Source: Variovorax sp. Root318D1 (lineage in GTDB: Bacteria > Pseudomonadota > Gammaproteobacteria > Burkholderiales > Burkholderiaceae_C). From it: 64,000 nucleotides of DNA. The notes beneath the pieces were generated by a model, which was given only the letters and a program-made list of their open reading frames with translations, was not told where the DNA came from and made no database searches. The position numbers and the translations under genes are program-made. The stretch spans positions 112,198-176,197 of the forward strand of contig NZ_LMCQ01000008.1 of assembly GCF_001424835.1 (NCBI RefSeq), given 5' to 3'. Below are positions 20,688 to 37,767 of this stretch, piece after piece (position 1 is the first letter of the stretch; the number at the start of each line of letters is the position of its first letter).

Positions 20688-21155
20688 TCAGATGAACAAC
20701 TGGACCGCAGGCAACGCGCGGCCAGCGTCGAGCAGGTCGATGCGCTTCTCGCGAATGGCCCAGCCCGTGGTCGTGCGCACGAGGTGGTGACGAGCGGTGC
20801 CGGCCAGCAGGACCTGGCTTTCGCCGCGCGCTTCTATGTAGATGAAGGGCGTGCGCAACCGCACTTCGCCGGCCGACTCGTGCTCGATGCGCGAAGGCTG
20901 CAGCACATGCTGGCTGTGGCTTGCCGGATGCTGCGAATGCGCACGCGGGTTCTTCAGGCGATCGACTCGCAGCTGCAGCAGCAGCCGGTCTTCGTAGGCC
21001 AGGGAGTTGTACGAGAACGGATCCGTCTGCGCCGCGCCGAGCAGCGGCACCCAGTAGTGGCCGTCTTCGGCGAACAGGGCCAACCAGTCGTCGAGGCGGC
21101 GCTCGTCGAGCAGCGCTGCTTCGTGGGCGGCAAAATCGCGCGGGTCGCCGTTCAT
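20688..21155 (-). CDS. Ring-hydroxylating oxygenase beta subunit (set A)
   Basis: 155 residues, SnoaL-like small subunit of Rieske oxygenases: RRLDDWLALFAEDGHYWVPL near residues 19-38 and YEDRLLLQLRVDRLKNPRAHS around 53-73 are typical. It ends ALPAVQLFI, identical in its last residues to the set B beta subunit. It starts inside the alpha-subunit stop (ATGA), giving tight coupling. Beta subunits are structural and have no metal centre. Confidence 0.9.
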   Translation of the reverse strand: MNGDPRDFAAHEAALLDERRLDDWLALFAEDGHYWVPLLGAAQTDPFSYNSLAYEDRLLLQLRVDRLKNPRAHSQHPASHSQHVLQPSRIEHESAGEVRLRTPFIYIEARGESQVLLAGTARHHLVRTTTGWAIREKRIDLLDAGRALPAVQLFI

Positions 21156-22477
21156 GCCGCGGCCTCCATGCCCGCCGCCATCGACTTCGCCCAGGCGCGG
21201 AACTGGTTGCGCATGAGCAGCTCGTTGGTGCCGTTGGTGGTGATCGTCTCTTGCGCGAGTTCGGCCGGGTCGTAGTTGCGATGCAGGCTCACCCATTCGT
21301 TGCCACCGGCGCGCAGGCCCTGCTGGATGCTCTCGAACAGATGCACGTCGTCGTGCGCGACCACCGACATCGGCGAGAACACCAGCCGGTTGTAGCCCAT
21401 CGCGCGCTCGAACAGCAGCGCGGGCGCACCTGCCGCGCGAAAGCTCCAGGCCTCGATGAGCGTGCGGTTCGCGGCCAGCGGACGGATCACCCGGATGGCC
21501 TGCGGCGAGCCCTTGACCGAAAGGCTCGGATACAAGACCGAGTTCTGGGGCGAGCGCTGCAATATCTCGGCCGCGCGCTCTTCGCCATGCGCGGCGCGCA
21601 TCGCGGCCTCGTACTCGGGCAGCTGCGCGTAATTGGAATGGATGCTGAAGTTGACGCCCAGCACACTGTGGCCGTTGGCGAACACACGGCCGCCCATCTT
21701 GTCGAAGAACTCGTAGCCCGAACCGAATGGCAGGATCTGCTCCATTGCCATCGGCTTGGCATCGTGCGGCGCGCGGCCTTCCCACAGCGCCTCGGCCGCC
21801 TTGGTGGCCGACTCATGCGTCGACATCGGGTGCACCGTGTCGTTGATGTTCTCGAGGTACATCTTCCAGTTGCAGTGCACGATATTGCGAAGCACGCCGC
21901 CACCGGCAGTGAGCTTGCCCTCGGGCGAGCGGTCGACCATGTTGTCGATGGCGCCCAGCACCTCGCCGAAATAGTCCTCGAAGGAAGGGCCCGCATCGGA
22001 CAAGCGCACGAACACGAAATCGCGATACACCTTCACGTGCTTCACCACCGAGAGCCCCTGCCCCGACTCGCAGGCCTTGAGCTGCGTGCCCTCGTAGCCG
22101 TTCTTCAGCGGCAGGCCGAGCGGCGCGCCATCGAGCTTGTAAGTCCACGCGTGGTACGGGCAGCGAAAGAAGCGGCCGGTGTTGCCGCACTCGTCCGTCA
22201 CCAGCTGCGTGCCCTTGTGCGCACAGCGGTTGTAGAGCACGTGCACCGCGCCATCGGGCTGCCGCACCATGAGCAACGGCCGTCCCGCAATGTCTTGCGC
22301 CACGAAGTCGCCCGCCTCCGGCACCTGGCTCGCATGGCCGAGAAACACCCAGGTGGTCGCGAACAGATGCTCCTGTTCGAGCGCGAAGATCTCATCACTC
22401 AGGTAGAGGTCGCGGTGCACGCGGTCGTGCTGCACCAGGGCGGCAATGCGATCGGGATGATGGCGGTAGCTGGTCAT
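21152..22477 (-). CDS. Rieske ring-hydroxylating oxygenase alpha subunit (set A)
   Basis: 441 residues. The Rieske [2Fe-2S] ligands are C85, H87, C106 and H109 (NRCAHKG...RCPYHAW). The mononuclear iron site is in ENINDTVHPMSTH with H216 and H221. Set A and set B alpha subunits are close paralogues, aligned without gaps through the first 220 residues. No ferredoxin or reductase lies next to set A, so it probably uses the reductase encoded at 32419-33411. Likely substrate is an indole or aryl acid; inferred from context. Confidence 0.92.
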   Translation of the reverse strand: MTSYRHHPDRIAALVQHDRVHRDLYLSDEIFALEQEHLFATTWVFLGHASQVPEAGDFVAQDIAGRPLLMVRQPDGAVHVLYNRCAHKGTQLVTDECGNTGRFFRCPYHAWTYKLDGAPLGLPLKNGYEGTQLKACESGQGLSVVKHVKVYRDFVFVRLSDAGPSFEDYFGEVLGAIDNMVDRSPEGKLTAGGGVLRNIVHCNWKMYLENINDTVHPMSTHESATKAAEALWEGRAPHDAKPMAMEQILPFGSGYEFFDKMGGRVFANGHSVLGVNFSIHSNYAQLPEYEAAMRAAHGEERAAEILQRSPQNSVLYPSLSVKGSPQAIRVIRPLAANRTLIEAWSFRAAGAPALLFERAMGYNRLVFSPMSVVAHDDVHLFESIQQGLRAGGNEWVSLHRNYDPAELAQETITTNGTNELLMRNQFRAWAKSMAAGMEAAA

Positions 22478-22496: not shown

Positions 22497-23639
22497 TCAG
22501 GGCACCAGCTTCCACTGGCCCTTGTTCATCTGCACGATCACCACGCCGCGCTGATCGGAGCCGTAGCGGTCGTCGGGCTTGAAGGTGTAGATGCCGTGTG
22601 TACCCACCAGCTCGCGGGTCGCCACGATGGCGTCGCGAAGCGCCGTGCGATATTGCGGCGTGCCCGGCTCGCCCTTGGTGCGCGAAACTGCATCGGCCAG
22701 AAGCAGATAGGCGTCGTAGGTGTACGACGAGAAAGCATCGGTGGGCATCGAGCCGTTCGCCTTCTGATAGGCGTTGCGAAAGCCCATCGACACCTTCTTG
22801 ATCGGGTTGCTGTCGGGCAGCTGATCGGCCACCAGCACAGGGCCACTGGGCACTTGCAGGCCCTCGATCGAGTTGCCGCCTACGCGCACGAAGTCGGCGT
22901 TGATGAGCCCGTGCGTCCCGTAGATCTTGCCCTTGTAGCCGCGCTCGGCCAGTGCGATGTAGGGCAGCGCGCCGGGTGTGCCCGAGTTGCCGGCAAACAC
23001 CGCGTCGGGCCGGGTGGCGACGATCTTCAGCACCTGCCCGGCGACCGACGAATCGCTGCGCGCGTAGCGCTCGTTCGCCACCACCTTGATGCCGGCCTTC
23101 TCGACGCTCTTCACGAGCGAGTCGTACGCCAGGTCGCCGAGCGCGTCGGAAAATCCGATGAAGGCCACCGTCTTCACGCCGGACTTCTGCATGCGGTCGA
23201 CCACACCCGCGACCATCAGTGGGAACGGCTGCGACACCGTCACCGTCCACGCGCCTTCGGCGCCCGGAATGGTGACTGGCGTCGGCGAGATCAGCGGCGT
23301 GTTGAGTTCGCGCGCTACCGAAGCGATAGCCATTGCGCCCGGCACGCCCGAGGTACCGATCAGCACGTCGACCTTGTCCTCCGTCACCAGCTTGCGCGCG
23401 TTGCGGCCAGCTGTGGTGGGGTCGGAGGCATCATCGAGCACGATCAGTTGGACCTTGCGGCCGCCGATCTCCGGACGCTCCGCAATGGCAGCGCGAATGC
23501 CCTTTTCATACGGCACGCCCAATGCGGCCACCGGGCCCGAAAGCGAGCTGATGAAGCCGATCTTGAGGTCGGCCGCCATGGCCTGCGCGGCGGCCAGCGC
23601 AACCGCGGTGGCGCCAAGAAATCGAGTGAGTTTTTTCAT
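22497..23639 (-). CDS. ABC importer substrate-binding protein (LivK-like, 2)
   Basis: 380 residues: signal peptide MKKLTRFLGATAVALAAAQAMA, then DLKIGFISSLSGPVAALG and a Peripla_BP_6 fold with the same DDASDPTTAGRNARKL block as its neighbours. It begins 1 bp before the end of paralogue 3 and ends 19 bp before the set A oxygenase gene. Tandem duplication with divergence is likely; each copy may bind a different aromatic acid and deliver it to the single LivHMGF complex. Confidence 0.9.
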   Translation of the reverse strand: MKKLTRFLGATAVALAAAQAMAADLKIGFISSLSGPVAALGVPYEKGIRAAIAERPEIGGRKVQLIVLDDASDPTTAGRNARKLVTEDKVDVLIGTSGVPGAMAIASVARELNTPLISPTPVTIPGAEGAWTVTVSQPFPLMVAGVVDRMQKSGVKTVAFIGFSDALGDLAYDSLVKSVEKAGIKVVANERYARSDSSVAGQVLKIVATRPDAVFAGNSGTPGALPYIALAERGYKGKIYGTHGLINADFVRVGGNSIEGLQVPSGPVLVADQLPDSNPIKKVSMGFRNAYQKANGSMPTDAFSSYTYDAYLLLADAVSRTKGEPGTPQYRTALRDAIVATRELVGTHGIYTFKPDDRYGSDQRGVVIVQMNKGQWKLVP

Positions 23640-23640
23640 G

Positions 23641-24807
23641 TCAGGGAACCAGCTTCCACTGGCCTTTTTCAAGCTTGACCACCACACGCGAACGCTCGTC
23701 CGATCCATACCGATCGTTCGGCTTGAAGTTGTAGACGCTGTGCGTACCCACGAGCTCCTTGGTGCTCACGATGGCGTCTCGCAGCGCCAGGCGGAACTGC
23801 GGCGTGCCCGGCTCGGCCTTGGTCGCAAGCGCGCGCTGCGCCGCGTCCAGGTACAGGAGCCATGCATCGAAGCTGTAGGCAGAGAAGGCATCGGTCGGCG
23901 GCACGCCGTTGGCCTTCTGGTAGGCCGCGCGGAAATCCATCGACACCTTGCGGATCGGGTTCTCGTTCGGCAGTTGCTCGGCCACGATCACCGGGCCGGT
24001 GGGTGCGAGCAGGCCTTCGACAGATGTACCGCCCACGCGCACGAAGTCCGGGTTGATGAGCGCATGCATGCCGTAGATCTGGCCCTTGTAGTCGCGCTCC
24101 GCGAGCGCCAGGTAGGGCAGCGCGCCGGGCGTGCCCGAGGTACCGGTGATCACCGCATCGGGGCGCAGCGCGACGATCTTCAGCACCTGGCCCGTCACCG
24201 ACGAATCGGCGCGCGCATAGCGCTCATTCGACACGATCTTGATGCCGGCAGGCTCCGCGCTCTTTTGCAGCGCGTCGTACACCAGGTCGCCCCAGGCATC
24301 GGAGAAACCGATGTAGCCGACCGTCTTCACGCCTGACTTCTTCATGCGATCGACCACCGCGCTCACCATCAATGGTGCAGGCTGCGGCAGCGTCACCATC
24401 CATGCGCCCTCCTCGCCCGGCAGGTTGGCGTTGGCGATCGAGATCAGCGGCGTCTTGGTTTCGCGCGCCACGCCGGCAATGGCCAGCGCGCCGGGCGATC
24501 CTGCCGTACCGATGATGACGTCGACCTTGTCCTCGTCAATCATCTTGCGGGCGTTGCGCGCGGCCGTGGAAGGGTCGGACGCATCGTCGAGCTGCACCAG
24601 CTGGATCTTCCGGCCGCCCACCTTCGACTTGTAGGCGATGGCGGCCTTCATGCCCTTCTCATAGGGAATGCCGAGCGACGACACCGGTCCCGACAACGAG
24701 GTGATGAAACCGACCTTGAGATCGGCGGCCCATGCGCCCGCGGCGCCCAGCGCTCCAAAGGCTGCAGCAATGCCCGCGAGGGCACGGAATCGGTTCAGGA
24801 CTTTCAT
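23641..24807 (-). CDS. ABC importer substrate-binding protein (LivK-like, 3)
   Basis: 388 residues: MKVLNRFRALAGIAAAFG signal peptide ending near AWA, then a periplasmic binding fold (DLKVGFITSLSGPVSSLG, DDASDPSTAARNARKMIDED). It is closely similar to paralogues 1 and 2 over the whole length. The ATG at 24807 is chosen because it gives a normal signal peptide, whereas earlier in-frame codons give a non-hydrophobic extension. Confidence 0.9.
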   Translation of the reverse strand: MKVLNRFRALAGIAAAFGALGAAGAWAADLKVGFITSLSGPVSSLGIPYEKGMKAAIAYKSKVGGRKIQLVQLDDASDPSTAARNARKMIDEDKVDVIIGTAGSPGALAIAGVARETKTPLISIANANLPGEEGAWMVTLPQPAPLMVSAVVDRMKKSGVKTVGYIGFSDAWGDLVYDALQKSAEPAGIKIVSNERYARADSSVTGQVLKIVALRPDAVITGTSGTPGALPYLALAERDYKGQIYGMHALINPDFVRVGGTSVEGLLAPTGPVIVAEQLPNENPIRKVSMDFRAAYQKANGVPPTDAFSAYSFDAWLLYLDAAQRALATKAEPGTPQFRLALRDAIVSTKELVGTHSVYNFKPNDRYGSDERSRVVVKLEKGQWKLVP

Positions 24808-24853: not shown

Positions 24854-25576
24854 CTAGAGGGCGAGGCTGCCGACACTGGTGCCGCCGCACACGTAGAGAA
24901 CCTGCCCGGTGATGAAGCTGCTGGCCGGGTCGGCAAAGAAACGCACCGCGCGCGCCACGTCGCCCGATTCGCCGAGCCGCTTGACGGGCACGGAAGCCGC
25001 AAGCGCGCGTTCCTTCTCGCTGCCGGCCTCCACCACGTCGTAGAACATGTCGGTTCGAATCGGGCCGGGTGCCACCACGTTCACCGTGATGCCATCCGCG
25101 GCGAGCTCGAGCGCCCAGGTGCGCGCCATGCCCAGCATGCCGGCCTTCGTCGCGGAATAGCTGGTGCGCGTGGCCAGCCCCAGCGCGGCGCGCGACGACA
25201 GCAGCACCACACGGCCGAACCGCCGTGCGCGCATCGCAGGCAATGCGCCTTGCACGAGCTGGATTGCGCAACCCAGATGCAGGTCGACCAGCGCATCGAG
25301 ATCGTCGAGCTTGACTTCGGGCAGCAGCGCGGCCCGGATCACGCCCGCGTTGTGGACGATGGTGGTCGGCGCAAAGCGTTCGACCAGTTCGCGCACCGCT
25401 TCGCCGGTAGCGGCACGGTCGCTCAGGTCGACCTCGATGCTGTGCAGCTTCGGATGTTCGATCTCGGACTTGCGGCGCGCGAGCGACACCACCTCGTAGC
25501 CCTGCGCGAGCAAGTCTTCGCAGATCGCCTTGCCGATGCCGGCGCTGCCGCCGGTGACGGCTGCTACCTTGTTCAT
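24854..25576 (-). CDS. SDR oxidoreductase
   Basis: 240-residue classical SDR: TGGSAGIG at residues 8-15, HNAG, a catalytic Ser in VVLLSSRAALG, and YSATK with the Tyr/Lys pair 13 residues on. PGPIRTDMF and a C-terminal GGTSVGSLAL end are normal. The ATG at 25576 is preferred over an in-frame TTG at 25642 that lies in a repeat. Within the proposed pathway it may act on a hydroxylated or keto intermediate; the substrate is not known. Confidence 0.86.
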   Translation of the reverse strand: MNKVAAVTGGSAGIGKAICEDLLAQGYEVVSLARRKSEIEHPKLHSIEVDLSDRAATGEAVRELVERFAPTTIVHNAGVIRAALLPEVKLDDLDALVDLHLGCAIQLVQGALPAMRARRFGRVVLLSSRAALGLATRTSYSATKAGMLGMARTWALELAADGITVNVVAPGPIRTDMFYDVVEAGSEKERALAASVPVKRLGESGDVARAVRFFADPASSFITGQVLYVCGGTSVGSLAL

Positions 25577-25715: not shown

Positions 25716-26528
25716 TCATAGCGATGCTCCCACGAGTGCCAGCACGCGCAGCGGACTGCCACTGCCCTTCTCGATCTTGAGCGGCGGGCAGATCAGCACT
25801 GCGCCCGATGGCGGCAGCAGGTCGAGGTTGCTCAGGCACTGCAGTCCATAGCGGCCCGCACCGTGCATGTAGTAATGGCACGGATACGGCGGCCGCAGGT
25901 GATAGCCCTGCCCCGCATCGGTACCGATGGCCTCGGAGCCGAAGCCCAGCACGTCGCGCTGCTCTACCAGGAAGCGCACGGCCTCGGTGCTCGGGCCGGG
26001 CGTGTGCTGGCCGGTCTCGTCGAAGTTCTGATAGGCCGCCGGGTCGCTGCGCTTGGACCAGTCGGTGCGCATCAGCACCCACGCGCCCTTCGGGATGCGG
26101 CCGTGCGCGGCTTCGTAGCGCTCGATGTCGGCCACGCTTAGCAGGTAGTCGTCGTTCGCCTGCGCATCGGCCGAGCAGTCGATCACGCAGGCAGGGGCCA
26201 CGAAGTGCTGCACGGGAATCGTGTCGACGGAATTGTTCGGCAGGTCGCGGCCCGAGATCCAGTGGATCGGCGCGTCGAAGTGCGTGCCCGTGTGCTCGCC
26301 GCAGGAAAAGTTGTTCCAGTACCAGCCCGGGCCGCGCTCGTCGTACTTGGACACTTCCTCGATGCGAAAGGGCCAGCACTGGCCCATCTCGGGCGGCAGC
26401 GCGATCTGCGGGAACTCGGGCGTGAGCGTCTGCGTGAGGTCGATCACGCGGATGCGACCGCTCGCCATGGCGGTCACGAGGCCGCCGAGGATCTCGGCGG
26501 CGGACATCAGTTCGGTCGTTGTCGTCAT
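25716..26528 (-). CDS. Cyclase-family metal hydrolase, isatin-hydrolase-like
   Basis: 270 residues of the KynB/isatin hydrolase superfamily. The signature HTGTHFDAPIHW spans residues 79-90; H79, H83 and D85 are the expected metal ligands, usually Mn or Zn, and H89 follows. Family members open cyclic amides: kynurenine formamidase, and isatin hydrolase that converts isatin to isatinate. Context with Rieske oxygenases, a DUF35/thiolase-like pair and MarR regulators makes isatin hydrolysis the best guess. It starts 16 bp after the DUF35-SDR gene ends. Confidence 0.85.
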   Translation of the reverse strand: MTTTTELMSAAEILGGLVTAMASGRIRVIDLTQTLTPEFPQIALPPEMGQCWPFRIEEVSKYDERGPGWYWNNFSCGEHTGTHFDAPIHWISGRDLPNNSVDTIPVQHFVAPACVIDCSADAQANDDYLLSVADIERYEAAHGRIPKGAWVLMRTDWSKRSDPAAYQNFDETGQHTPGPSTEAVRFLVEQRDVLGFGSEAIGTDAGQGYHLRPPYPCHYYMHGAGRYGLQCLSNLDLLPPSGAVLICPPLKIEKGSGSPLRVLALVGASL

Positions 26529-26544: not shown

Positions 26545-27798
26545 TCAGCCGCCTGCGGCCAGCTCGCGTTCGAGCACCTTGGGGTTGTCGCGCCAGCGCT
26601 CCAGCCACTCCTGCGCCACGTCGCCGGGGTACACGTCTTCGACGCCATCGCGCAATGCCTTGACGATGGCGTTGGCCAGCGCGGTGGGCGCCAGCTTGGG
26701 CGGTGGCGTGTGCTGGTTCCACTCGTCGTCGATGGGCCCGGGGAACACGTTGATCACGCGGATGCCGGCCGGCCGCATCTCGGCGCGCAGGCATTGCGCG
26801 AGCGAATGCGCAGCCGCCTTCGACGCACTGAAGGTGCCGTGCGGCGGAAAGTTGCTGAGCGCGTAGATCGACAGCAGGTTGACCCACGCGGTCGCGCCCG
26901 TCGCGCCGTCGGCCGAGCGGCCCTTGAGCGCGGGGCCAAACTCCTGCGCGAGGCGCAGCAGGCCGAAGTAGTTGATGTCCATTTCGGCCTTGGCCACGTC
27001 GGTGCCACGGCGTGCGCCGATGCCGAAGGTGCGGTGCACCTCGGCGTTGTTGATGACGATGTCGACCTTGCCGCCGATGGAGCCCGCAAGCTCGGTCACC
27101 TGCCGGCCGTTGGTCAGGTCGAGCGGCACCAGCGTGACCTGCGGCAGCGCGGAGATGTCGTCCAGGCCGTCGCCGAGCTTCTTCCAGGGCTCGGCATGGC
27201 CGACCCAGACGATGTCGGCGCCGGCCTTCACCAGCGCGCGCACGAGGGCCTGGCCCACCTCGGTCTTGCCGTCGGTCACCAGCGCCTTGCGGAACTTGGG
27301 GTCGCTGGTCATTTCACGGAGCATCTTGTCGTCGGCCATATGGGCACTCCCTTCGTTCGGAAAACCAATGAGAACGGCCTGGCCCGCTCGGTCGAGCCGG
27401 GCTCCGACCCGCACGCGCTGGGGCGCATCGCCAACCTCGCCGTGCAGGTGGACCATGAGCGTGGGTCCGGCGTCCAGATGCACGAGGCCCAGCCGCCAGG
27501 GCAGTCGCTCACGGAAGAACAGGTCGTTGCTGTGGTGCAGCGTGGTGCTGCCGAGCAGTTCGCCCTCGCCGCTTTGCGCGCGCCAACGCAGCGCAGCGGA
27601 GAGGCACTTGTGGCAAACCTCGCGCGGCGGGTACTGCACCGTGCCGCAGTCCTCGCAGGTCTGCAGCTCGAAGCGGCCTTCGGCGGCGGCGGCCGTGAGG
27701 CCGAGCGCCACGCGGCCACGCGCGCCGGGCGGCAGGTTCATCTGCCGGGTACGCAGCACCGGGTTCTTGCGCGGGGGGCGCATCATCGGCATCGTCAT
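26545..27798 (-). CDS. DUF35 zinc-ribbon/OB-fold protein fused to degenerate SDR
   Basis: 417 residues. The N-terminal part (about 35-150) is a DUF35 module: zinc-ribbon cysteines C48, C51, C62 and C65 (TCEDCG...EVCHKC), then an OB-fold. Residues about 155-415 are an SDR fold, but with changes at key points. The glycine motif reads TDGKTEVG (175-182), NNAG is NNAE, and the catalytic Tyr is Phe323 in FSASK, while Ser310 and Lys327 remain. DUF35 proteins partner thiolase-like proteins, and the neighbour is one (ATGA overlap). The SDR part may be structural or CoA-binding. Confidence 0.87.
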   Translation of the reverse strand: MTMPMMRPPRKNPVLRTRQMNLPPGARGRVALGLTAAAAEGRFELQTCEDCGTVQYPPREVCHKCLSAALRWRAQSGEGELLGSTTLHHSNDLFFRERLPWRLGLVHLDAGPTLMVHLHGEVGDAPQRVRVGARLDRAGQAVLIGFPNEGSAHMADDKMLREMTSDPKFRKALVTDGKTEVGQALVRALVKAGADIVWVGHAEPWKKLGDGLDDISALPQVTLVPLDLTNGRQVTELAGSIGGKVDIVINNAEVHRTFGIGARRGTDVAKAEMDINYFGLLRLAQEFGPALKGRSADGATGATAWVNLLSIYALSNFPPHGTFSASKAAAHSLAQCLRAEMRPAGIRVINVFPGPIDDEWNQHTPPPKLAPTALANAIVKALRDGVEDVYPGDVAQEWLERWRDNPKVLERELAAGG

Positions 27799-28967
27799 GC
27801 GGGTCTCCCCAGGATCACCGCGCCTGTGCACAGGCAACGGTCGTAGGTCACCATGCCGAAGCCGGCAACGAGGCCCAGTTGCGCATCGGGCACTGCGCGC
27901 TTGCCGGCCTGGTCGGTCAGTTGGCGGATCGCCTCGACCATGCCGAGGAAGCCGCCCGCCGCGCCGGCCTGCCCGGCCGAGAGCTGGCCGCCGCTGGTGT
28001 TGTTCGGAAAGCTACCGTCGAAGGTCATGGTGTGCGACTGCACGAAGGCGGGGCCTTCGCCCTTCTCGCAGAAACCCAGGTCCTCGAACTGCATCATCAC
28101 AATCACCGGGTAGTCGTCGTAGGTCTGGACAAAGTCGAGCGCTGCGGGCCGCACGCCGGCCTGCGCATACAAGTCGTCGCGGTCCTTGCGCCAGCCGCCC
28201 TGCACCATCACCGGGTCTTCGGCATAGGCGTTATGGCGCTCGATGGCGCCGCGGATCGCGACGTGCGCCAAGCCCAGGTCGCGCGCGCGCTCCTCGCTCA
28301 TCACCAGGAACGCATCGGCGCCGGCACACGGCATCACGCAGTCGAACAGATGAATCGGATCGGAGATCGGCCGAGCGGCCATGTACTCCTCCAGCGTTAG
28401 CGGCTTCTTGAACATCGCGTTCGGATTGCCGAGCGCATTGATGCGCTGGTCCACGCAGATGCGGCCGAAGTCTTCGCGCTTCGCGCCATAGGTGCGCATG
28501 TAGTTGGCAGTGATGAAGGCGAAGATCGAGTTGGGCCCGCCGGAACCGTAGGGGTAGCTCGCATCGCGCGCAAAGTTGCTGAAGCTGCCGAGCGTCTGGC
28601 GGAAGGAGTCGACATGGTTGGTATCCGCACCCACGCAGGCCACGATGTCGGCATCACCCGCCTGTACCGCACGCGCGGCGCGGCGCAGGCACATCACGCC
28701 CGAGGCACCGCCGGTGGGCACATGGTCGAGCCAGCGCGGCGACAGACCTAGGTGCTGCGTCACGCCCACGGCCGTGTCGGGCGCTAGCGAGAAACTGCTG
28801 AGGCAGAGGCCATCGATCTGCTCCTTGACCACGCCGCTGGCGTGGACCAGCGCCTCGATCGCCTGTCCGATGAACCAGTGCGCGGTGCGCGTGGAGTAGC
28901 GCACGTAGGGCACGGTGACGGGCACGGCGACCGCGACGCCTTCGTAGGAAAGCCGTTGCTTCGTCAT
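27795..28967 (-). CDS. Thiolase-like protein lacking the nucleophilic Cys
   Basis: 390 residues with a thiolase/SCP-x fold. The nucleophile region reads PTGGASG (84-90), so the thiolase Cys is Gly87. The GHP motif is replaced by SAGQAGAAGG (330-339). Two tyrosines, Y283 and Y286, lie in the QTYDDYP segment. Such Cys-less thiolase-like proteins, paired with DUF35 partners, act as retro-aldolases in steroid side-chain degradation (Ltp2-ChsH2). Here it could cleave a tertiary beta-hydroxyacyl-CoA to acetyl-CoA plus a ketone. That activity is inferred. Confidence 0.85.
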   Translation of the reverse strand: MTKQRLSYEGVAVAVPVTVPYVRYSTRTAHWFIGQAIEALVHASGVVKEQIDGLCLSSFSLAPDTAVGVTQHLGLSPRWLDHVPTGGASGVMCLRRAARAVQAGDADIVACVGADTNHVDSFRQTLGSFSNFARDASYPYGSGGPNSIFAFITANYMRTYGAKREDFGRICVDQRINALGNPNAMFKKPLTLEEYMAARPISDPIHLFDCVMPCAGADAFLVMSEERARDLGLAHVAIRGAIERHNAYAEDPVMVQGGWRKDRDDLYAQAGVRPAALDFVQTYDDYPVIVMMQFEDLGFCEKGEGPAFVQSHTMTFDGSFPNNTSGGQLSAGQAGAAGGFLGMVEAIRQLTDQAGKRAVPDAQLGLVAGFGMVTYDRCLCTGAVILGRPA

Positions 28968-30589
28968 GTCTGCCTCTTTTTCATCGAACGGGTGTCGATG
29001 CAATGGCCCTGCCCCGGCAGCGACTGCGCCATCTCGCGCAACTGGCCGCGCTGGATCTTTTGCGAAGGCGTGAGTGGCAGCGCATCGACGAAAGCCACAT
29101 AGCCCGGCGCCTTGTAGTACGCCAGTTGTGCGAGCGCGTGTTCTACGATGCTGGCAGCGATCTGTGCGCGTTCTGAGGCATCGGCGCCCTCGCGCATCAC
29201 GATGCAGGCCAGCACCTCGTCGCCGCGCACCGCATCGGGCGTGGCGGCCACCGCCGAGGTCTTCACGGCCGGGTGCTGGTTGAGCACGCTCTCGACCTCC
29301 ACGGCCGAGATGTTCTCGCCGCTGCGGCGGATCACGTTCTTCTTGCGGTCGACGAAGAAGAAGTTGCCCTCGGCATCGCGGCGCACGAGGTCGCCGGTGC
29401 GGAACCAGCCATCGGCCCAGGCCTCGCGCGTCGCTTCCTCGTCCTTCAGATAGCCGGAGAAGAAGTAGCGTTTCGGGTCGCTGCCCGTGGAGCGGACGAG
29501 CAGTTCGCCCGGCGCATCGATGTCGACGTCGTTGCCATCCTCGCCCACGAGGCGGATCTGAACAAAATCTTCCTGCCGCCCGAAGCAGCTCGTGCCCACG
29601 AGGCGCGGCTCCCGGTTGGCCATGATGCAGGCGGCCGCGCCGGTCTCGGTCATCGCCCAGGCCTCGACCAGCGGGAAGCCGAAGCGCTTCTCGAACGGCG
29701 CATGGTTCTTGCGGTCCACGCCAGCGCCGAAGCCCCAGCGGATCGCATGGTCGCGGTCTGCGGCAGACGGCGGTGCCGACAGCAGCATCGCGGGCATCAC
29801 GCCAAGGTAATGCACGATGGTCGCGCCGCTTTCTCGGGCGCTTGCGAGCCAGGTCTTCGGGTGGAAGCGGTCGAGCTGCACCAGACAGCCGCCTGCCACC
29901 AGCACCACCATGGTGGAGAACGCCATCGCGTTCATGTGGTTGAGCGGCAGCGGCGTGATGACGCGTTCGGCATCAGGGCGGATGCTGCAGACGCCGTCGA
30001 GCGCGGCATACCACTCGCCAGCGCGCTGGAAGTACGCGTTGCTCAGGATGCAGCCCTTGGGCCGGCCCGTGGTGCCGGAGGTGTAGAGCAGGCCGCATTC
30101 GGTGTGGACGCTAATCGGCTCGTGGGCGCGTGGCGCGGTGGTCTTCGCTTTCGGCACGGCGTCATCAGGCCCCATGGTCTCGAAGGGCACGCCTGCTTGT
30201 GCCGCGGCTGCGAGCAGATCGCTCGCGCGCTCGGGCAGCGTGACTGCGAGACCGATTTCGCTATGGCCGATCAGGTAGACCAGTTCTGCCGATCGCATTT
30301 CGGCATTGATCGGCACGACGCTTACGCCCAGCGCGTTGAGCGCGAACCAGTGAAAGAGGAAGGCCGGCCTGTTCTCCAGCAGCAGGCCCACGCGATGGCC
30401 GTGGCCGTAGCCGGCTTTCGCATAGGCAGTGCGCAGGCGCTCGACTTCGGCCGCTGCCTCGCCCCATCGGATGACGCCGGCCGGGATGCCGTAGGCTGAA
30501 GCGGTCACCGACTCGGTGAACAAGAACTCGGCCTGCGGCGTGCGCGCCGCGGTGGCCGCAAAGACTTGATGGACGGTGACGTGTGGCAT
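28964..30589 (-). CDS. AMP-forming acyl-CoA ligase (second of two)
   Basis: 541 residues, ANL superfamily. [15 protein letters not shown] is near residues 167-181, a DRKKNVIRRSGENISAVE hinge near 425-442, and PLTPSQKIQRGQLRE holds the likely catalytic Lys. It begins 7 bp after the set B beta-subunit gene ends and overlaps the thiolase-like gene by 4 bp. It probably makes the CoA thioester cleaved by the thiolase-like/DUF35 pair, for example dioxindole-3-acetyl-CoA. Confidence 0.88.
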   Translation of the reverse strand: MPHVTVHQVFAATAARTPQAEFLFTESVTASAYGIPAGVIRWGEAAAEVERLRTAYAKAGYGHGHRVGLLLENRPAFLFHWFALNALGVSVVPINAEMRSAELVYLIGHSEIGLAVTLPERASDLLAAAAQAGVPFETMGPDDAVPKAKTTAPRAHEPISVHTECGLLYTSGTTGRPKGCILSNAYFQRAGEWYAALDGVCSIRPDAERVITPLPLNHMNAMAFSTMVVLVAGGCLVQLDRFHPKTWLASARESGATIVHYLGVMPAMLLSAPPSAADRDHAIRWGFGAGVDRKNHAPFEKRFGFPLVEAWAMTETGAAACIMANREPRLVGTSCFGRQEDFVQIRLVGEDGNDVDIDAPGELLVRSTGSDPKRYFFSGYLKDEEATREAWADGWFRTGDLVRRDAEGNFFFVDRKKNVIRRSGENISAVEVESVLNQHPAVKTSAVAATPDAVRGDEVLACIVMREGADASERAQIAASIVEHALAQLAYYKAPGYVAFVDALPLTPSQKIQRGQLREMAQSLPGQGHCIDTRSMKKRQT

Positions 30590-30596
30590 CGCGTCC

Positions 30597-31085
30597 CTAG
30601 ATGAAGAGCTGCACGGCCGGCAAGGCCGCGTCGCAGTTGAGTAGGTTCACGCGCTTGAGCGTCATGCGCAACGCGCCGTTCTGCACCGTGAGGTGATGGA
30701 AAAAGGTGCCGACATAGAACTGAAGCTCATCGCCCTGCGATTCGGTGTAGTGAAACTCGGTGCGCACCACGAAGCGGTTGCCTTCGGCATCGAGCGTTTC
30801 GACCACCGGCATTTGCAGCAGATGGTGGCAACGGCTTTGCGGCTGCTGCGAGAACGCGCGCGGACTCTTCAGGCGCTCGATGCGCAGCTCGCGCAGCAGC
30901 TTGTCTTCGTACAGGTGCGAGGTGTGGTTGATGCCATCTTCCTGATCGGGCACCAGTGGAATCCAGTAGAACGCGTCGTCGGTGAAAAGCGCGTTCCATT
31001 CTTCATAGCGGCGCGTGTCGAGCAGGTGCGCTTCGTTCACGACGAAGTCGATCAGGTCCTGGCGGGTGATTTCGACGGCGGCCAT
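30597..31085 (-). CDS. Ring-hydroxylating oxygenase beta subunit (set B)
   Basis: 162 residues, SnoaL-like beta subunit. RRYEEWNALFTDDAFYWIPL and LYEDKLLRELRIERLKSPRA match the family and align with set A. It ends ALPAVQLFI, as set A does. Its ATG at 31085 shares one base with the alpha-subunit stop. It should form an alpha3beta3-type complex with the upstream alpha subunit. Confidence 0.9.
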   Translation of the reverse strand: MAAVEITRQDLIDFVVNEAHLLDTRRYEEWNALFTDDAFYWIPLVPDQEDGINHTSHLYEDKLLRELRIERLKSPRAFSQQPQSRCHHLLQMPVVETLDAEGNRFVVRTEFHYTESQGDELQFYVGTFFHHLTVQNGALRMTLKRVNLLNCDAALPAVQLFI

Positions 31086-32398
31086 CACATCGTCTCCGTC
31101 ATGCGCTGCACCCAGCTGCGGTACTGGTTGCGCATCGGCAGTTCGTTGGTGCCGCCGGTCGTGATCTCGCCGCCTTTCAGCTCCGACGGATCGTAGTTGC
31201 GATGCAGGCTGACCCAGTCGTTCCCGCTCGCGTGCAGCCCGGCCTGCATGCCGCGATACGCCTGCAGATCGTCGTGCCCCACCACCGAGAACGGTGAGTT
31301 GATGAGCCGGTTGTACATGGTGGTGCGCTGCAGCAGTTCGGGCGGCGCGCCCTTCAGGCGGAAGGTCCAGCTCTCGATCAGCGTCTTGTCGGCCGAGATC
31401 GGCTTCACCACGCGGATCGCCTGGATCGCGCCCTTGATCGTGAGGTTCGGGTAGTACACCGTGTTGTGCCGCGCCATGCCCAGGATCTGCGCGGTCTTTT
31501 CCTCGCCGTAGCGCGCCTTCATGGAGTCGTCGTACGCGGGAATCGCCTTGTACTTGCTGTGGATGCTGAAGTGCACACCCGTGAAGCTGTGGCCGTGGTC
31601 GTAGGTGCGAATGCCCATGTCCTCGAAGAACTTGTAGTCGGACATGAAAGGCACGAACTGCTCCACCGCCATGGGTTTGGGTTCGTCCTCGGGCTTGTCC
31701 GCCCACATGCGCTTGGCGGTGCCGGCCGACGATTCATGCGCCACCATCGGGTGCATGGTGTCGTTGAGGTTCTCCACGAACATCTTCCAGTTGCACTGGT
31801 GCATGAAGCGCAGGCATCCGCCCGCGATCTCGAGTTCGCCTTCTGGCGATCGGTCGGCCATGTTGTCGATGGAACTCAGCGAGTCGCCGAAGTATTCGTC
31901 GAAGTCCGGCCCCGCATCGTTGACCTTCACGAAGATGAAGCCGCGGTAGCTGCGCACGTGCTTCAGCGTGATGAGCCCCTTGGCCGATTCGCACTCGTGC
32001 AGCGCGGTGTACTCGTAACCGGTCTTCAGCGGGATGGCGAGCAGCGAGCCGTCGGTCTTGAATGTCCAGGCGTGATAGGGGCAGCGAAAGAACTTGCCGG
32101 TGTTGCCGCAGGGCCCACTCACGAGCCGCGAGCCCTTGTGGGCGCAGCGGTTCATCATCGCGCGCACGCTGCCGTCGGTGTGGCGCACCACGATCAGCGG
32201 CCGGCCAGCAATCTCGTTGCTGATCCAGTCGCCCGGCTTGGGCAGCTGGCTCTCGTGGCCGACGTAGTTCCAGGTGTTGGCGAAGAAGTGCTCCTGCTCC
32301 AGCTCGAACAATTCCTGGCTGATGTACAGGTCGCGATGCACGCGGTCGTTCTGCACCAACGCGCGGACCACTTCCGGGTTGTCTCGGTACGAGGTCAT
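31085..32398 (-). CDS. Rieske ring-hydroxylating oxygenase alpha subunit (set B)
   Basis: 437 residues. Rieske ligands are C85, H87, C106 and H109 (NRCAHKG, FRCPYHAW), with mononuclear iron ligands H216 and H221 in ENLNDTMHPMVAH. It starts 20 bp after the reductase gene ends, so oxygenase and reductase are made together. Rieske oxygenases with this arrangement start iad-type indole-3-acetate degradation. Set B is the better candidate for that first step because it carries the reductase; this is an inference. Confidence 0.92.
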   Translation of the reverse strand: MTSYRDNPEVVRALVQNDRVHRDLYISQELFELEQEHFFANTWNYVGHESQLPKPGDWISNEIAGRPLIVVRHTDGSVRAMMNRCAHKGSRLVSGPCGNTGKFFRCPYHAWTFKTDGSLLAIPLKTGYEYTALHECESAKGLITLKHVRSYRGFIFVKVNDAGPDFDEYFGDSLSSIDNMADRSPEGELEIAGGCLRFMHQCNWKMFVENLNDTMHPMVAHESSAGTAKRMWADKPEDEPKPMAVEQFVPFMSDYKFFEDMGIRTYDHGHSFTGVHFSIHSKYKAIPAYDDSMKARYGEEKTAQILGMARHNTVYYPNLTIKGAIQAIRVVKPISADKTLIESWTFRLKGAPPELLQRTTMYNRLINSPFSVVGHDDLQAYRGMQAGLHASGNDWVSLHRNYDPSELKGGEITTGGTNELPMRNQYRSWVQRMTETM

Positions 32399-32418: not shown

Positions 32419-33411
32419 TCAGATGTCGAGCACCAGACGTGCGCCCTTGGCGCGCGAGATGCAGATCTGCATGACGGTGCCTTCCGCCTTCTCTCGTGCG
32501 GTCAGCACGTAGTCGCGGTGGTCGATCTCGCCTTCGAGCACAGGGGTAGCGCATACGCCGCATTCGCCGCGCTTGCAGTCGAACATGGGGTCGCAGCCGT
32601 TCTCGATCAGGCAATCGAGGATGCTCTGGTCGGCCGGCACGGTGAAGCGCTGGCCCGATTGCGCCAGCTCCACCTCGAAGGGCTGGTCACCCTCTTCCAC
32701 GACCGGTTCGGTAAACAGCTCGAAGTGCACGCGGTCGTGTTCCCAGCCGCGCGCCTGGGCGCGGGCGAGCACGGCGTCGAGCATGACCTTGGGGCCGCAA
32801 ACGTAGAGGCGGTCGCCGGTGGGGACGCCGTCGAGCAACGCATCGACGGCCCGCGGCGTGCCGGCTTCGGCGTCGGCATGCACGCGCAGGTCGTCGCCCA
32901 GGAGCGCCTGCAGCTCGGGCAGGAAGGCCATCAGGTCGCGGCTGCGGCCTGCGTAGTGCAGGCGCACCGGCGCCCCTTCGGCGCGGCGCCGTGCCGCCAT
33001 GGTGGCGAGTGGCGTGATGCCGATGCCGCCTGCTACCAGCACCGTGCCACCGGGGCCGGTGTGCAGCGGAAAGTCGTTCTTCGGCGGCTCGATGGCAAGG
33101 GTGTCGCCCTCTTTCAACTGCTCGTGCATGAAGCGCGAGCCGCCACGGCCTTCGGCCTCCTTGCGCACGGCAATGACATATTCCGTCGGCGCGTTGGTGG
33201 CGTTGCGCGCCGTCGCGAAGTTGATCAGCGAGTAGTGGCGCCAGTCGGTCTTGCCGTCGGGCAGCGTCACCTGCACGCGGATGTGGGCACCGGCCGCGAA
33301 GCCGGGCAATGCGCGGCCATCTTCCGCGCGCAGCCGCAGCATGCGGATCAGCGGATTGAGTTCGCGCGCTTCGGCAACGCGAAGCTGAAGGGTGGCGGTG
33401 GGAGCAGTCAT
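32419..33411 (-). CDS. Oxygenase reductase (flavin/NAD + C-terminal [2Fe-2S])
   Basis: 330 residues in the VanB/phthalate dioxygenase reductase order: an FMN domain with RHYSLIN (about 54-60), an NAD domain (LVAGGIGITPLATM about 110-125, then CGPKVMLDAV), and a plant-type ferredoxin domain with CKRGECGVC plus a later Cys in QICIS. It passes electrons from NAD(P)H to the Rieske centre. As the only reductase in the locus it may serve both oxygenase sets. Confidence 0.92.
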   Translation of the reverse strand: MTAPTATLQLRVAEARELNPLIRMLRLRAEDGRALPGFAAGAHIRVQVTLPDGKTDWRHYSLINFATARNATNAPTEYVIAVRKEAEGRGGSRFMHEQLKEGDTLAIEPPKNDFPLHTGPGGTVLVAGGIGITPLATMAARRRAEGAPVRLHYAGRSRDLMAFLPELQALLGDDLRVHADAEAGTPRAVDALLDGVPTGDRLYVCGPKVMLDAVLARAQARGWEHDRVHFELFTEPVVEEGDQPFEVELAQSGQRFTVPADQSILDCLIENGCDPMFDCKRGECGVCATPVLEGEIDHRDYVLTAREKAEGTVMQICISRAKGARLVLDI

Positions 33412-33425
33412 CGTGCGTGGTCTCT

Positions 33426-34934
33426 TCAGGCCAGGGCGTGCTGCGCCAGCGCGGCTTGCAGCTTGTGGCCGTGTTCGTCGGCGAGCGCCGCGTCGCGCAG
33501 TTCGCGCAAGGTGGCAGGCGCGAGCGCCGTGCCGGCACGCTCGACCGCGCGCATCACGGTGTCGTAGTTGCGGATACCGCGCTCGTGCGTGTCGCTGTAG
33601 CCCTTGACGAGGCGCTGGCACTGGGCCAGCTCGACGGCCAGCTCGGGGTTGCGCTGGGCCGTGGCGGCAATGCGTTGAAGCCACTCTTCGATGCGGCGGT
33701 TTTCTTCCGCGTAGCGCATCGTCGAGCGGCGCCAGCGCTTGCATGCCGCCACGGTGCGCAGCATCAGATAGCCATGCAGCGAACTGGTCTGGATCACACG
33801 GCCGTGCTGCGTGAAGCCCTCGACGATCCTCTTCGGCAGCGTTGAGTTCATGAGCCAGCGGCCGATGCCGCCCGGCAGCGTCTCGCAGATTTCCTGCAGT
33901 CGCGGATGCATGTATTCGTTGATGGCGAGCACCTGCCCCGGCTGCACGCGGGCCTCGCCGCGCACGCGCTCGAAGCGGGTGGCGCGGGTTTTGAGCGCGG
34001 CGACGCGGGCGGTGTCTTCGTAGGACATCCACAGTGCAAGGTGTCGTGCGGTTTCGCGCAGCAGTCGGTGATCGTCGCTTCCGGGCAGCGTGGCGATGGC
34101 GGCCATGCGGTCGAGGTACAAGGCCGCGTAGGCCGGATCCTGGTAGTCGATGAGGCGACGCACGCCTTCGAGCAAGAAGTCTTGTGCAGCGAGCGGGAAA
34201 CCGTGCTGCACGCGTTCGACCAGCGCGCGCACCGCGGGGTGGCGAGGTTGCGGCACTGGCGTGGCGACAACCGGCTCCGGCGGCGTCTCGCCATCGTCGC
34301 CACCCTGGGCTCGCGCAAACGCCGCACCAAACGCCTTCAGGCTGGGCTTGACCCCTACGCCACCGCGCTCGATGGTGGCCTCGAACTGCGCGCGGCTGAA
34401 CGGCAGCACGCCGGATCCCGCCAGCGCACCGAACAGCACGGCGCTGATCACGCTGCCCGAAGCTTCGGCCGCTTGCGCCATGTCGAAACGGATGAAGCGC
34501 TTGGCCGCCCTGCCGGTGTGCGCGAGCAGCTGCGCGCTGTCGACGCGGCCATCTCCGAGCGCGCTCTTCTCCGCGATGGAGAACACACGGTGCGTCGATG
34601 CGATGAGCGTGGTGCGGTCACGCGTGACCAGCCCGCGTTGCACGGCACGGCCGGCTTCCATGAGTTCCGATGCGAGCACCACGTCAACGTCACCCGGCAA
34701 GGGCATCAGTGCCAGCACGGGCTTCCCGCCGTCTGCCTCGGCCTGCGCCAGGGGATACAGCTCGACGTAGTAGATGGTGGCGCCAGTGCGCTGCGCCACG
34801 CCGGGCACAGAGGTGGTCTGCGCGACATAGCCGTTGGCCTCGCCCATGTCGACGATCCAATCGGCCAGCACGCCGCCGCCCTCCCCGCCCATGGCGAGGA
34901 TTGCGATCTTGATGGGCTGTGGCTTGTTCGTCAT
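33426..34934 (-). CDS. iorB: Indolepyruvate ferredoxin oxidoreductase beta-like IorB, long form
   Basis: 502 residues. The first 190 or so form the 2-oxoacid:acceptor oxidoreductase gamma-type domain (LAMGGEGGGVLADWIVDMG, VPGVAQRTGATIYYVELYP). After a Pro-rich linker, about 280 further residues form a helical extension not present in archaeal IorB (about 200 residues). It starts 4 bp after iorA ends. The oxygen-independent enzyme normally makes acyl-CoA from aryl-2-oxoacids; here the substrate may be isatinate. The extension is of unknown function. Confidence 0.88.
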   Translation of the reverse strand: MTNKPQPIKIAILAMGGEGGGVLADWIVDMGEANGYVAQTTSVPGVAQRTGATIYYVELYPLAQAEADGGKPVLALMPLPGDVDVVLASELMEAGRAVQRGLVTRDRTTLIASTHRVFSIAEKSALGDGRVDSAQLLAHTGRAAKRFIRFDMAQAAEASGSVISAVLFGALAGSGVLPFSRAQFEATIERGGVGVKPSLKAFGAAFARAQGGDDGETPPEPVVATPVPQPRHPAVRALVERVQHGFPLAAQDFLLEGVRRLIDYQDPAYAALYLDRMAAIATLPGSDDHRLLRETARHLALWMSYEDTARVAALKTRATRFERVRGEARVQPGQVLAINEYMHPRLQEICETLPGGIGRWLMNSTLPKRIVEGFTQHGRVIQTSSLHGYLMLRTVAACKRWRRSTMRYAEENRRIEEWLQRIAATAQRNPELAVELAQCQRLVKGYSDTHERGIRNYDTVMRAVERAGTALAPATLRELRDAALADEHGHKLQAALAQHALA

Positions 34935-34938
34935 TGCT

Positions 34939-37290: not shown

Positions 37291-37767
37291 ATGGCTGAGC
37301 AGCCGCCCGAACCGCATCGCTTCGTCGATGACTACCTGCCGGCGCTGCTGGCGCAGGCCAGCCAGCTGATCTCCTCGGAGTTCCACGAGGTGGCGCGGCA
37401 GCAGGGTTTCTCGGTGTCGGAGTGGCGCGTGATGGCGTCGCTCGCGGGCAGCGAGCCGATCAGCATCGGGCAGCTCGCACAGCTGACCGTGACCAAGCAG
37501 CCGACGGTGACGCGCCTGCTCGACCGCATGGAAGCACGCGGACAGGTCGAGCGGCTGCCCCATGAAAGTGATCGCCGCATCACGCTGGTGCGCATCACGC
37601 GCAAGGGGCTGAAGGCGGTAGAGCACCTGATGGATCTCGCGCGCGACCATGAGCGGCGCGTGCTCGAACCCTTCGGCCTCCGTCGCGCCGAAGAGCTGAA
37701 GCAGACCCTGCGGCAGATGATCGACTTGCACGTGCATGTGCCGGTCGAGGGGCCGGAAGAAGACTAA
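37291..37767 (+). CDS. MarR-family regulator (second of two in the locus)
   Basis: 158 residues with a MarR winged helix: VTKQPTVTRLLDRMEARGQV as recognition region and HESDRRITLVRITRKG as wing. GAGG lies 7 bases before the ATG. It is divergent from iorA, so it is the prime candidate for control of the long catabolic operon, probably released by an aromatic acid. It ends by overlapping the 3' end of the convergent MDR gene by 4 bp. Two MarR genes also occur in characterised Variovorax auxin loci. Confidence 0.92.
   Translation: MAEQPPEPHRFVDDYLPALLAQASQLISSEFHEVARQQGFSVSEWRVMASLAGSEPISIGQLAQLTVTKQPTVTRLLDRMEARGQVERLPHESDRRITLVRITRKGLKAVEHLMDLARDHERRVLEPFGLRRAEELKQTLRQMIDLHVHVPVEGPEED

Follow-up and report, generated by a model that had tools for sequence, protein, structure and literature searches.

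Two enzyme pairs of known structure join a thiolase fold that lacks the nucleophilic cysteine to a DUF35 partner: CtSal-CtShyDUF35 (9MYR), the bile-acid side-chain aldolase of Comamonas testosteroni, which converts a beta-hydroxyacyl-coenzyme A (CoA) to acetyl-CoA, and TcLtp2 with the DUF35 domain of ChsH2 (6OK1), a steroid side-chain aldolase that acts on the tertiary C17 hydroxyl. The benzoylsuccinyl-CoA thiolase BbsAB (7PXP) also combines a thiolase fold with a DUF35-type subunit and performs true thiolysis. In CtSal, where the thiolase nucleophile is absent, Tyr302 serves as base and Cys304 as acid (PMC12329534), and the side-chain step of ibuprofen degradation, which gives propionyl-CoA, has been described as a retro-aldolase reaction (PMC9195938). 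Here we compare with these systems the products of iadG and iadH of Variovorax sp. Root318D1. Both genes lie in a 64,000-nt stretch of DNA (the window; positions 112198-176197 of contig NZ_LMCQ01000008.1) that holds a Variovorax-type iad locus for degradation of indole-3-acetate, and all iad genes were named by order and annotation to match V. paradoxus CL14/CL014 (PMC12633357, PMC10374108). Statements credited to PMC identifiers refer to excerpts of those papers.

IadG and the DUF35 part of IadH very probably cleave dioxindole-3-acetyl-CoA (DOAA-CoA), the thioester of dioxindole-3-acetate (DOAA), by a retro-aldol reaction that would give isatin and acetyl-CoA. An initial annotation of the window had proposed this reaction, and the proposal is supported by the loss of thiolase residues and the presence of aldolase residues in IadG, by the adjoining DUF35 domain, by a CoA ligase gene upstream and an isatin hydrolase gene directly downstream, and by published deletions.

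To compare active sites, 104 IadG-like proteins (the window's own, 80 loci and a further 23 loci, including one near-duplicate pair, L079 and L080) were aligned with stretches of five solved relatives. The published numbering of CtSal was verified at Gly89, Gln161, Asn162, Tyr165, Tyr302, Cys304, Tyr305, Gln347, and Gln352, all of which showed the same offset of 24. Gly87, Tyr283, Gln328, and Gln333 were each present in 104/104 homologs, whereas the Cys-bearing thiolases BbsB (7PXP) and 7YVY have C, H, L, and H in the same columns. All three thiolase residues are thus replaced in IadG: the cysteine by Gly87, the histidine of HDxF by Tyr283, and GHP by QAG. BbsAB, unlike IadG, keeps Cys, HDAF, and GHP. 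The initial annotation had noted the glycine and QAG and had concluded that the protein cannot be a normal thiolase; Gly87 and the Gln333 that begins QAG are invariant, and the loss of the HDxF histidine is a third one that it had not mentioned. Judged by these three losses, a role as an ordinary, true thiolase (EC 2.3.1.16) was rejected. Pfam detected the thiolase C-terminal domain alone, and none of 21 listed NCBIfam families matched IadG above its cut-off (best score 213.8 bits, 421 needed).

By sequence, the nearest solved relative of IadG is CtSal (E value 9.5e-54), followed by 4U4E (8.7e-46), TcLtp2 (1.2e-40), 7YVY (1.8e-40), and BbsB (3.3e-29); 4U4E, although named a thiolase, is Cys-less with the motif YDSF. 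IadG shares with CtSal the base tyrosine in YDxY and the equivalents of Gly89, Gln347, and Gln352, and differs in having Asp285 for Cys304, Pro145 for Gln161, and, as predicted substrate, the tertiary alcohol of an oxindole. The initial annotation had drawn its parallel with Ltp2. The Cys-less fold, the DUF35 partner, the base tyrosine of YDxx, and the tertiary hydroxyl (predicted for IadG) are indeed common to both, but the sequence match is weaker than to CtSal, the motif is YDDY instead of YDHF, and the acid Tyr344 of TcLtp2 is Gln333 in 104/104 homologs; IadG was therefore rejected as an Ltp2 ortholog. Asp285 was found in 103 of the 104 proteins, giving the motif YDD[Y/F], which even the remote members L151 and L152 carry (as YDDF). 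The sole exception, L137, is 36% identical and has the Sal motif YDCY. An aspartate at this second catalytic position is seen in neither Sal nor Ltp2.

In a tree of 60 sequences (28 of the 104 IadG proteins, 27 distant homologs, and the five PDB stretches), the YDD[Y/F] proteins separated from all others with a support of 0.998, and proteins with Cys and GHP were placed elsewhere. Loss of the cysteine alone is common, as 25/27 distant homologs have glycine at the nucleophile column, so the informative point is the fuller Sal-like residue set. The ibuprofen-type cluster of plasmid pRW412a (L161:37014-42176) contains the same kinds of gene as the iad locus: those for both Rieske subunits (alpha and beta), for a thiolase-like protein that lacks the Cys, for an OB protein, for a CoA ligase, and for a solute-binding protein. 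Over 306 aligned columns, this thiolase-like protein shares 31% identity with IadG, and its motif is YDAF; unlike IadH, its OB partner is without the four-cysteine ribbon, and the ibuprofen route yields propionyl-CoA and a catechol, unlike the products predicted for IadG. By gene order, we take these thiolase-like and OB genes to be IpfD and IpfE.

IadH matched zf-ChsH2 (2.3e-13), OB_ChsH2_C (2.4e-13), and adh_short (4.2e-23) in Pfam, and is therefore a fusion of DUF35 with a short-chain dehydrogenase/reductase (SDR). The zinc-ribbon DUF35 domain and the ATGA overlap with iadG (27795-27798) agree with the initial annotation, which had not mentioned the SDR part; iadF and iadG likewise overlap by ATGA, and an ATGA at the IadG stop in frame with IadH was found in 69/104 loci. 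With an identity floor of 35%, and counting loci with room in the fetched stretch (as for all neighbor counts), a DUF35 gene was near iadG in 98/102 loci, on the same strand and within ~200 nt in 97/98. Two of the four misses hold a more divergent DUF35 in that place, and the others are L151 and L152. An N-terminal DUF35 in a fused partner whose gene lies downstream of the aldolase gene is also the layout of Sal-Shy (PMC11321319), where the fused domain is a MaoC hydratase instead of a degenerate SDR and the ribbon is C3H1 instead of four cysteines. At L134, which also carries iadD, iadE, iadF, iadG, and iadJ, and at L142, which also carries iadF and iadG, DUF35 stands alone, with no SDR part. 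In the outgroup loci L135 and L136 (46% and 44% identity), a CoA-transferase-like gene and a YDDY protein are followed by a stand-alone DUF35, with Pfam as the basis for the CoA-transferase of L136 and for DUF35 in both. The constant unit is thus CoA activation, a YDD[Y/F] protein, and DUF35. L134 and L142 may serve a variant pathway, and L135 and L136 possibly apply the same chemistry to another acid, with a CoA-transferase replacing the CoA ligase.

For the SDR part, 95 fused copies from the 104 loci were analyzed (three unfused proteins and six loci without a DUF35 match were set aside). The first glycine of the TGxxxGxG loop was absent from 95/95, being Asp in 90, Asn in four, and Ala in one. 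At the catalytic tyrosine, Phe was found in 72 copies, Tyr in 14, and other residues in nine, while Lys was retained in 80/95 and Ser in 92/95; the window reads S-F-K. In the nearest solved relative, 5U4S, a leucine stands at the tyrosine in the printed alignment. IadJ of the same operons served as a control (in the 78 loci where the best match reached 45% identity or more across 200 aa): all three glycines of the loop, together with Tyr and Lys, were intact in 77/78, the remaining one being gapped, and Ser in 74. The SDR part of IadH is thus probably not a working dehydrogenase, and with the loop glycine missing throughout and the tyrosine lost in the window we rejected IadH as an alcohol dehydrogenase. 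A dying domain was rejected as well: the median ratio of nonsynonymous to synonymous substitution rates (dN/dS) of the SDR part was 0.115, the lowest of six segments (0.152-0.199 for the other five), in 67 of the 79 loci L042-L120 (named genomes). Nor did a pseudo-SDR that docks IadJ survive, because several loci have a fused SDR and no IadJ match near, and L134 shows the opposite.

The best clue to the product of IadG and IadH is IadI. The window's IadI matched isatin hydrolase A, its structural counterpart (5NNA, 5NNB), with an E value of 6.4e-112 for 5NNA, and shares with the Labrenzia aggregata enzyme (LaIHA) 160/257 identities and 11/11 of the active-site residues that form the metal site, relay protons, or line the ring pocket. 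Moreover, IadI of Roseibium algicola, encoded directly after IadH in an iad operon on a plasmid (L140:12429-13202), agrees at 249/257 positions with the crystallized isatin hydrolase A from L. aggregata (5NNB). LaIHA and RsIHA hydrolyze isatin with Km values of 16 and 10 uM (PMC6117287); the expected substrate of IadI is therefore isatin, not dioxindole. In elemental composition, DOAA is the sum of isatin and acetic acid, and isatinic acid that of isatin and water, so a retro-aldol cut of DOAA-CoA would supply this substrate without a redox step. IadI was present in 89/97 loci; the eight misses are L089, L090, L133, L134, L137, L142, L151, and L152.

Deletion of iadF, iadG, iadH, or iadI lowers anthranilate and raises C10H9NO4 (DOAA), which establishes the need for these four genes, and C8H7NO2 rises in the absence of iadI (PMC12633357). 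An equal block in iadG and iadH mutants fits a joint enzyme. In the mechanism that we propose, IadF would convert DOAA to its CoA thioester, in which C3 is quaternary, so that ordinary beta-oxidation and thiolysis are closed to it. The predicted complex of IadG and the DUF35 part of IadH, probably a heterotetramer like CtSal-ShyDUF35, would bind DOAA-CoA; Tyr283 would take the proton of the tertiary C3-OH, the C3-CH2 bond would break by retro-aldol cleavage, and the acetyl-CoA enolate would be protonated by Asp285 with help from Gln328 and Gln333. Position and conservation suggest this acid role for Asp285. Isatin and acetyl-CoA would be released with neither free CoA nor a redox cofactor consumed, and IadI would hydrolyze isatin to isatinate. 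The SDR part of IadH would be a non-catalytic domain and dioxindole (C8H7NO2) a side product. We infer further that DOAA in the iadI mutant reflects reversibility of the aldol step and that other reductases convert isatin to C8H7NO2; V. paradoxus CL14 cultures are reported to contain isatin as well as dioxindole and isatinic acid (PMC9613470).

Several observations weigh against a retro-aldol cleavage of this kind. In the alignment, the column of the CtSal oxyanion residue Gln161 is Pro145 in 95/104 proteins and Ala in 9/104, and the join of IadG and Sal as sisters in the tree had a support of just 0.291. The CtSal variants C304A, C304S, and C304H are inactive and Asp is not in the variants listed in the excerpts (PMC12329534), so that Asp285 is a predicted acid. 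In PMC11321319, the DUF35 domain is described as seemingly unimportant for the activity of Ltp2. C8H7NO2 is the formula of dioxindole, two hydrogens above isatin, and C8H5NO2, the formula of isatin, is absent from the excerpted text of PMC12633357. The SDR part of IadH is under purifying selection, and Ser-Tyr-Lys is complete in 10/95 copies. Finally, at L089, L090, L133, and L134 the fetched stretch holds a DUF35 gene together with iadD, iadE, iadF, and iadG but gave no match to IadI. An isatin hydrolase gene thus does not accompany those of IadG and IadH everywhere; it may lie elsewhere in these cases, or the route may differ.

Some of these points would suit a bifunctional complex, in which isatin, made by IadG and DUF35 through retro-aldol cleavage, is reduced by the SDR part of IadH, with dioxindole as the true intermediate of the pathway. 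The C8H7NO2 that accumulates (PMC12633357), the listing of dioxindole among the intermediates of B. japonicum (PMC8383072), the selection on the SDR part, and the copies that keep the catalytic triad all agree with it. Phenylalanine replaces the catalytic tyrosine in the window and most other copies, however, every copy lacks the loop glycine, and an isatin hydrolase calls for isatin. IadG and DUF35 also persist without the SDR part in L134 and L142, but no IadI match was found in the fetched stretches of these two loci, whose IadG is close, and they are therefore no proof that the isatin route runs without it. On balance, a bifunctional complex appears improbable. It is very unlikely that IadG and IadH form a CoA-dependent carbon-carbon enzyme with another substrate or mode, for example a PhlC-like acyltransferase, and that DOAA is cleaved otherwise. 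PhlC acyltransferases do belong to the same DUF35/thiolase-like superfamily, but their match (2.8e-14) is far below those of Sal and Ltp2. Some F-G-H-I blocks lie in genomes searched without finding IadD (G675 and G800); even so, loss of G or H accumulates DOAA (PMC12633357), and isatin hydrolase accompanies most loci. The published assignment, by which a ketothiolase (IadG, EC 2.3.1.16) and an alcohol dehydrogenase (IadH) remove the acetyl group reductively to give C8H7NO2, is hardly credible. It draws on labels from annotation in the preprint and on the C8H7NO2 that builds up without IadI (PMC12633357), while the three thiolase residues are gone from every homolog, the tertiary alcohol of DOAA-CoA cannot, by chemical inference, become a 3-ketoacyl-CoA, the loop glycine that IadH lacks is kept in IadJ, and an IadH acting after cleavage predicts product build-up on deletion where DOAA is seen instead (an argument weak alone, since DOAA also accumulates without IadI).

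Retro-aldol cleavage by IadG with DUF35 thus remains our preferred explanation. More tentatively, and with somewhat less than even confidence, we propose in full that IadG is a new catalytic variant among the thiolase-fold retro-aldolases, with a Tyr-Asp pair (YDD[Y/F]) where the others have Tyr-Cys or Tyr-Tyr, that isatin would be formed without redox chemistry, that IadH would be a DUF35 subunit carrying a pseudo-dehydrogenase for assembly or docking, and that the preprint assignment would be wrong here. Among the matches listed from the open-access literature, with subscription journals mostly outside, no paper assigned this step to a retro-aldolase or described an aspartate at this site, and the exact name "dioxindole-3-acetyl-CoA" was found in no paper of that literature.

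The locus is transcribed from the minus strand in the order IorA/IorB-like genes, iadC, iadD, iadE, iadF, iadG, iadH, iadI, iadJ, and two genes for solute-binding proteins; a MarR gene is transcribed divergently (Table 1). The IorA/IorB-like genes (33426-37128, minus), upstream of iadC, encode thiamine-pyrophosphate oxidoreductases, for which isatinate, being an aryl 2-oxo acid, could be a substrate. Another gene for a Rieske alpha subunit (21152-22477, minus) is 55% identical to IadD at the protein level, and no beta subunit adjoins it among the genes identified.

Table 1. Features of the iad locus, with positions in the window.
Feature	Position	Strand	Remarks
iadG	27795..28967	minus	thiolase-fold protein, 390 aa, predicted retro-aldolase
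Gly87 of IadG	28707..28709	minus	at thiolase nucleophile Cys position; = CtSal Gly89; codon checked
Y283-D284-D285-Y286 of IadG	28110..28121	minus	predicted base Tyr283 (= CtSal Tyr302) and predicted acid Asp285 (= CtSal Cys304)
Gln328 of IadG	27984..27986	minus	= CtSal Gln347
Gln333 of IadG	27969..27971	minus	= CtSal Gln352, TcLtp2 Tyr344, thiolase GHP His; start of QAG
iadH	26545..27798	minus	DUF35-SDR fusion, 417 aa, predicted partner subunit
DUF35 part of IadH (zinc ribbon and OB fold, residues 36-136)	27391..27693	minus	PF12172, PF01796
Zinc-ribbon cysteines C48, C51, C62, C65	27604..27657	minus	each in 95/95 fused copies
Degenerate SDR domain of IadH (residues 171-400)	26599..27288	minus	first glycine of TGxxxGxG absent from 95/95; Phe for catalytic Tyr in the window
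Phe323 of IadH	26830..26832	minus	at SDR catalytic Tyr position
iadF	28964..30589	minus	acyl-CoA ligase (AMP-forming), PF00501; ATGA overlap with iadG
iadI	25716..26528	minus	isatin hydrolase, PF04199 cyclase family
iadJ	24854..25576	minus	intact SDR dehydrogenase; proposed to make DOAA (role from PMC12633357)
iadE	30597..31085	minus	Rieske oxygenase beta subunit, PF00866
iadD	31085..32398	minus	Rieske oxygenase alpha subunit, PF00355, PF00848
iadC	32419..33411	minus	reductase/ferredoxin; NCBIfam matches all under cut-off
Two ABC solute-binding proteins (iadK type)	22497..24807	minus	PF13458
MarR regulator (IadR type by position)	37291..37767	plus	PF01047

The window's IadG is up to 97% identical to those of other Variovorax loci. 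In a sample of the genus, 59/61 genomes matched IadG and 55/61 had a copy of at least 84% identity, one of these in two pieces; two genomes of the genus also carry a second iad-like cluster (L138, L139) whose IadG is 68-69% identical to the window's. In a sample of the class, 21/369 genomes matched at an E value of 1e-40 or below, and just five, including the window's own, at 46% identity or more. The IadG profile matched 10/398 genomes of a phylum sample at 1e-80. Among plasmids, 36 records matched at 1e-80, mostly from Sulfitobacter (14), Roseibium (5), and Labrenzia (4). Some alphaproteobacterial loci have F-G-H-I and no iadCDE in the fetched stretch, and such blocks were found at L141, L145, L148, L153, and L154 (IadF of L153 being just 34% identical). 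In genomes G611, G627, and G524, IadD is encoded ~20-34 kb away on the same contig, whereas no IadD was found at an E value of 1e-30 in G675 and G800, where DOAA or a similar acid may therefore come by another route. Two loci (L103, L113) with iad genes come from metagenome bins named Verrucomicrobia and Candidatus Fonsibacter, with IadG 77-79% identical to the window's; misbinning is likely.

Removal of auxin by bacteria with iad loci protects the growth of plant roots against inhibition (PMC9613470, PMC12633357). A retro-aldolase would give one step of that process a defined substrate, products, residues, and partner, and would give isatin hydrolase an operon and a purpose. If the proposal is true, the step in the preprint, with a ketothiolase, an alcohol dehydrogenase, and C8H7NO2 on the main line, would be wrong; such a correction to the published pathway is open to testing, yet it stays within a known kind of enzyme. 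It would also add an active-site variant to an enzyme family of interest as biocatalysts. The removal of side chains from auxin, ibuprofen, and steroids would then follow a common strategy, in which the beta carbon carries a hydroxyl, the compound is activated with CoA, and a retro-aldol cut removes the chain.

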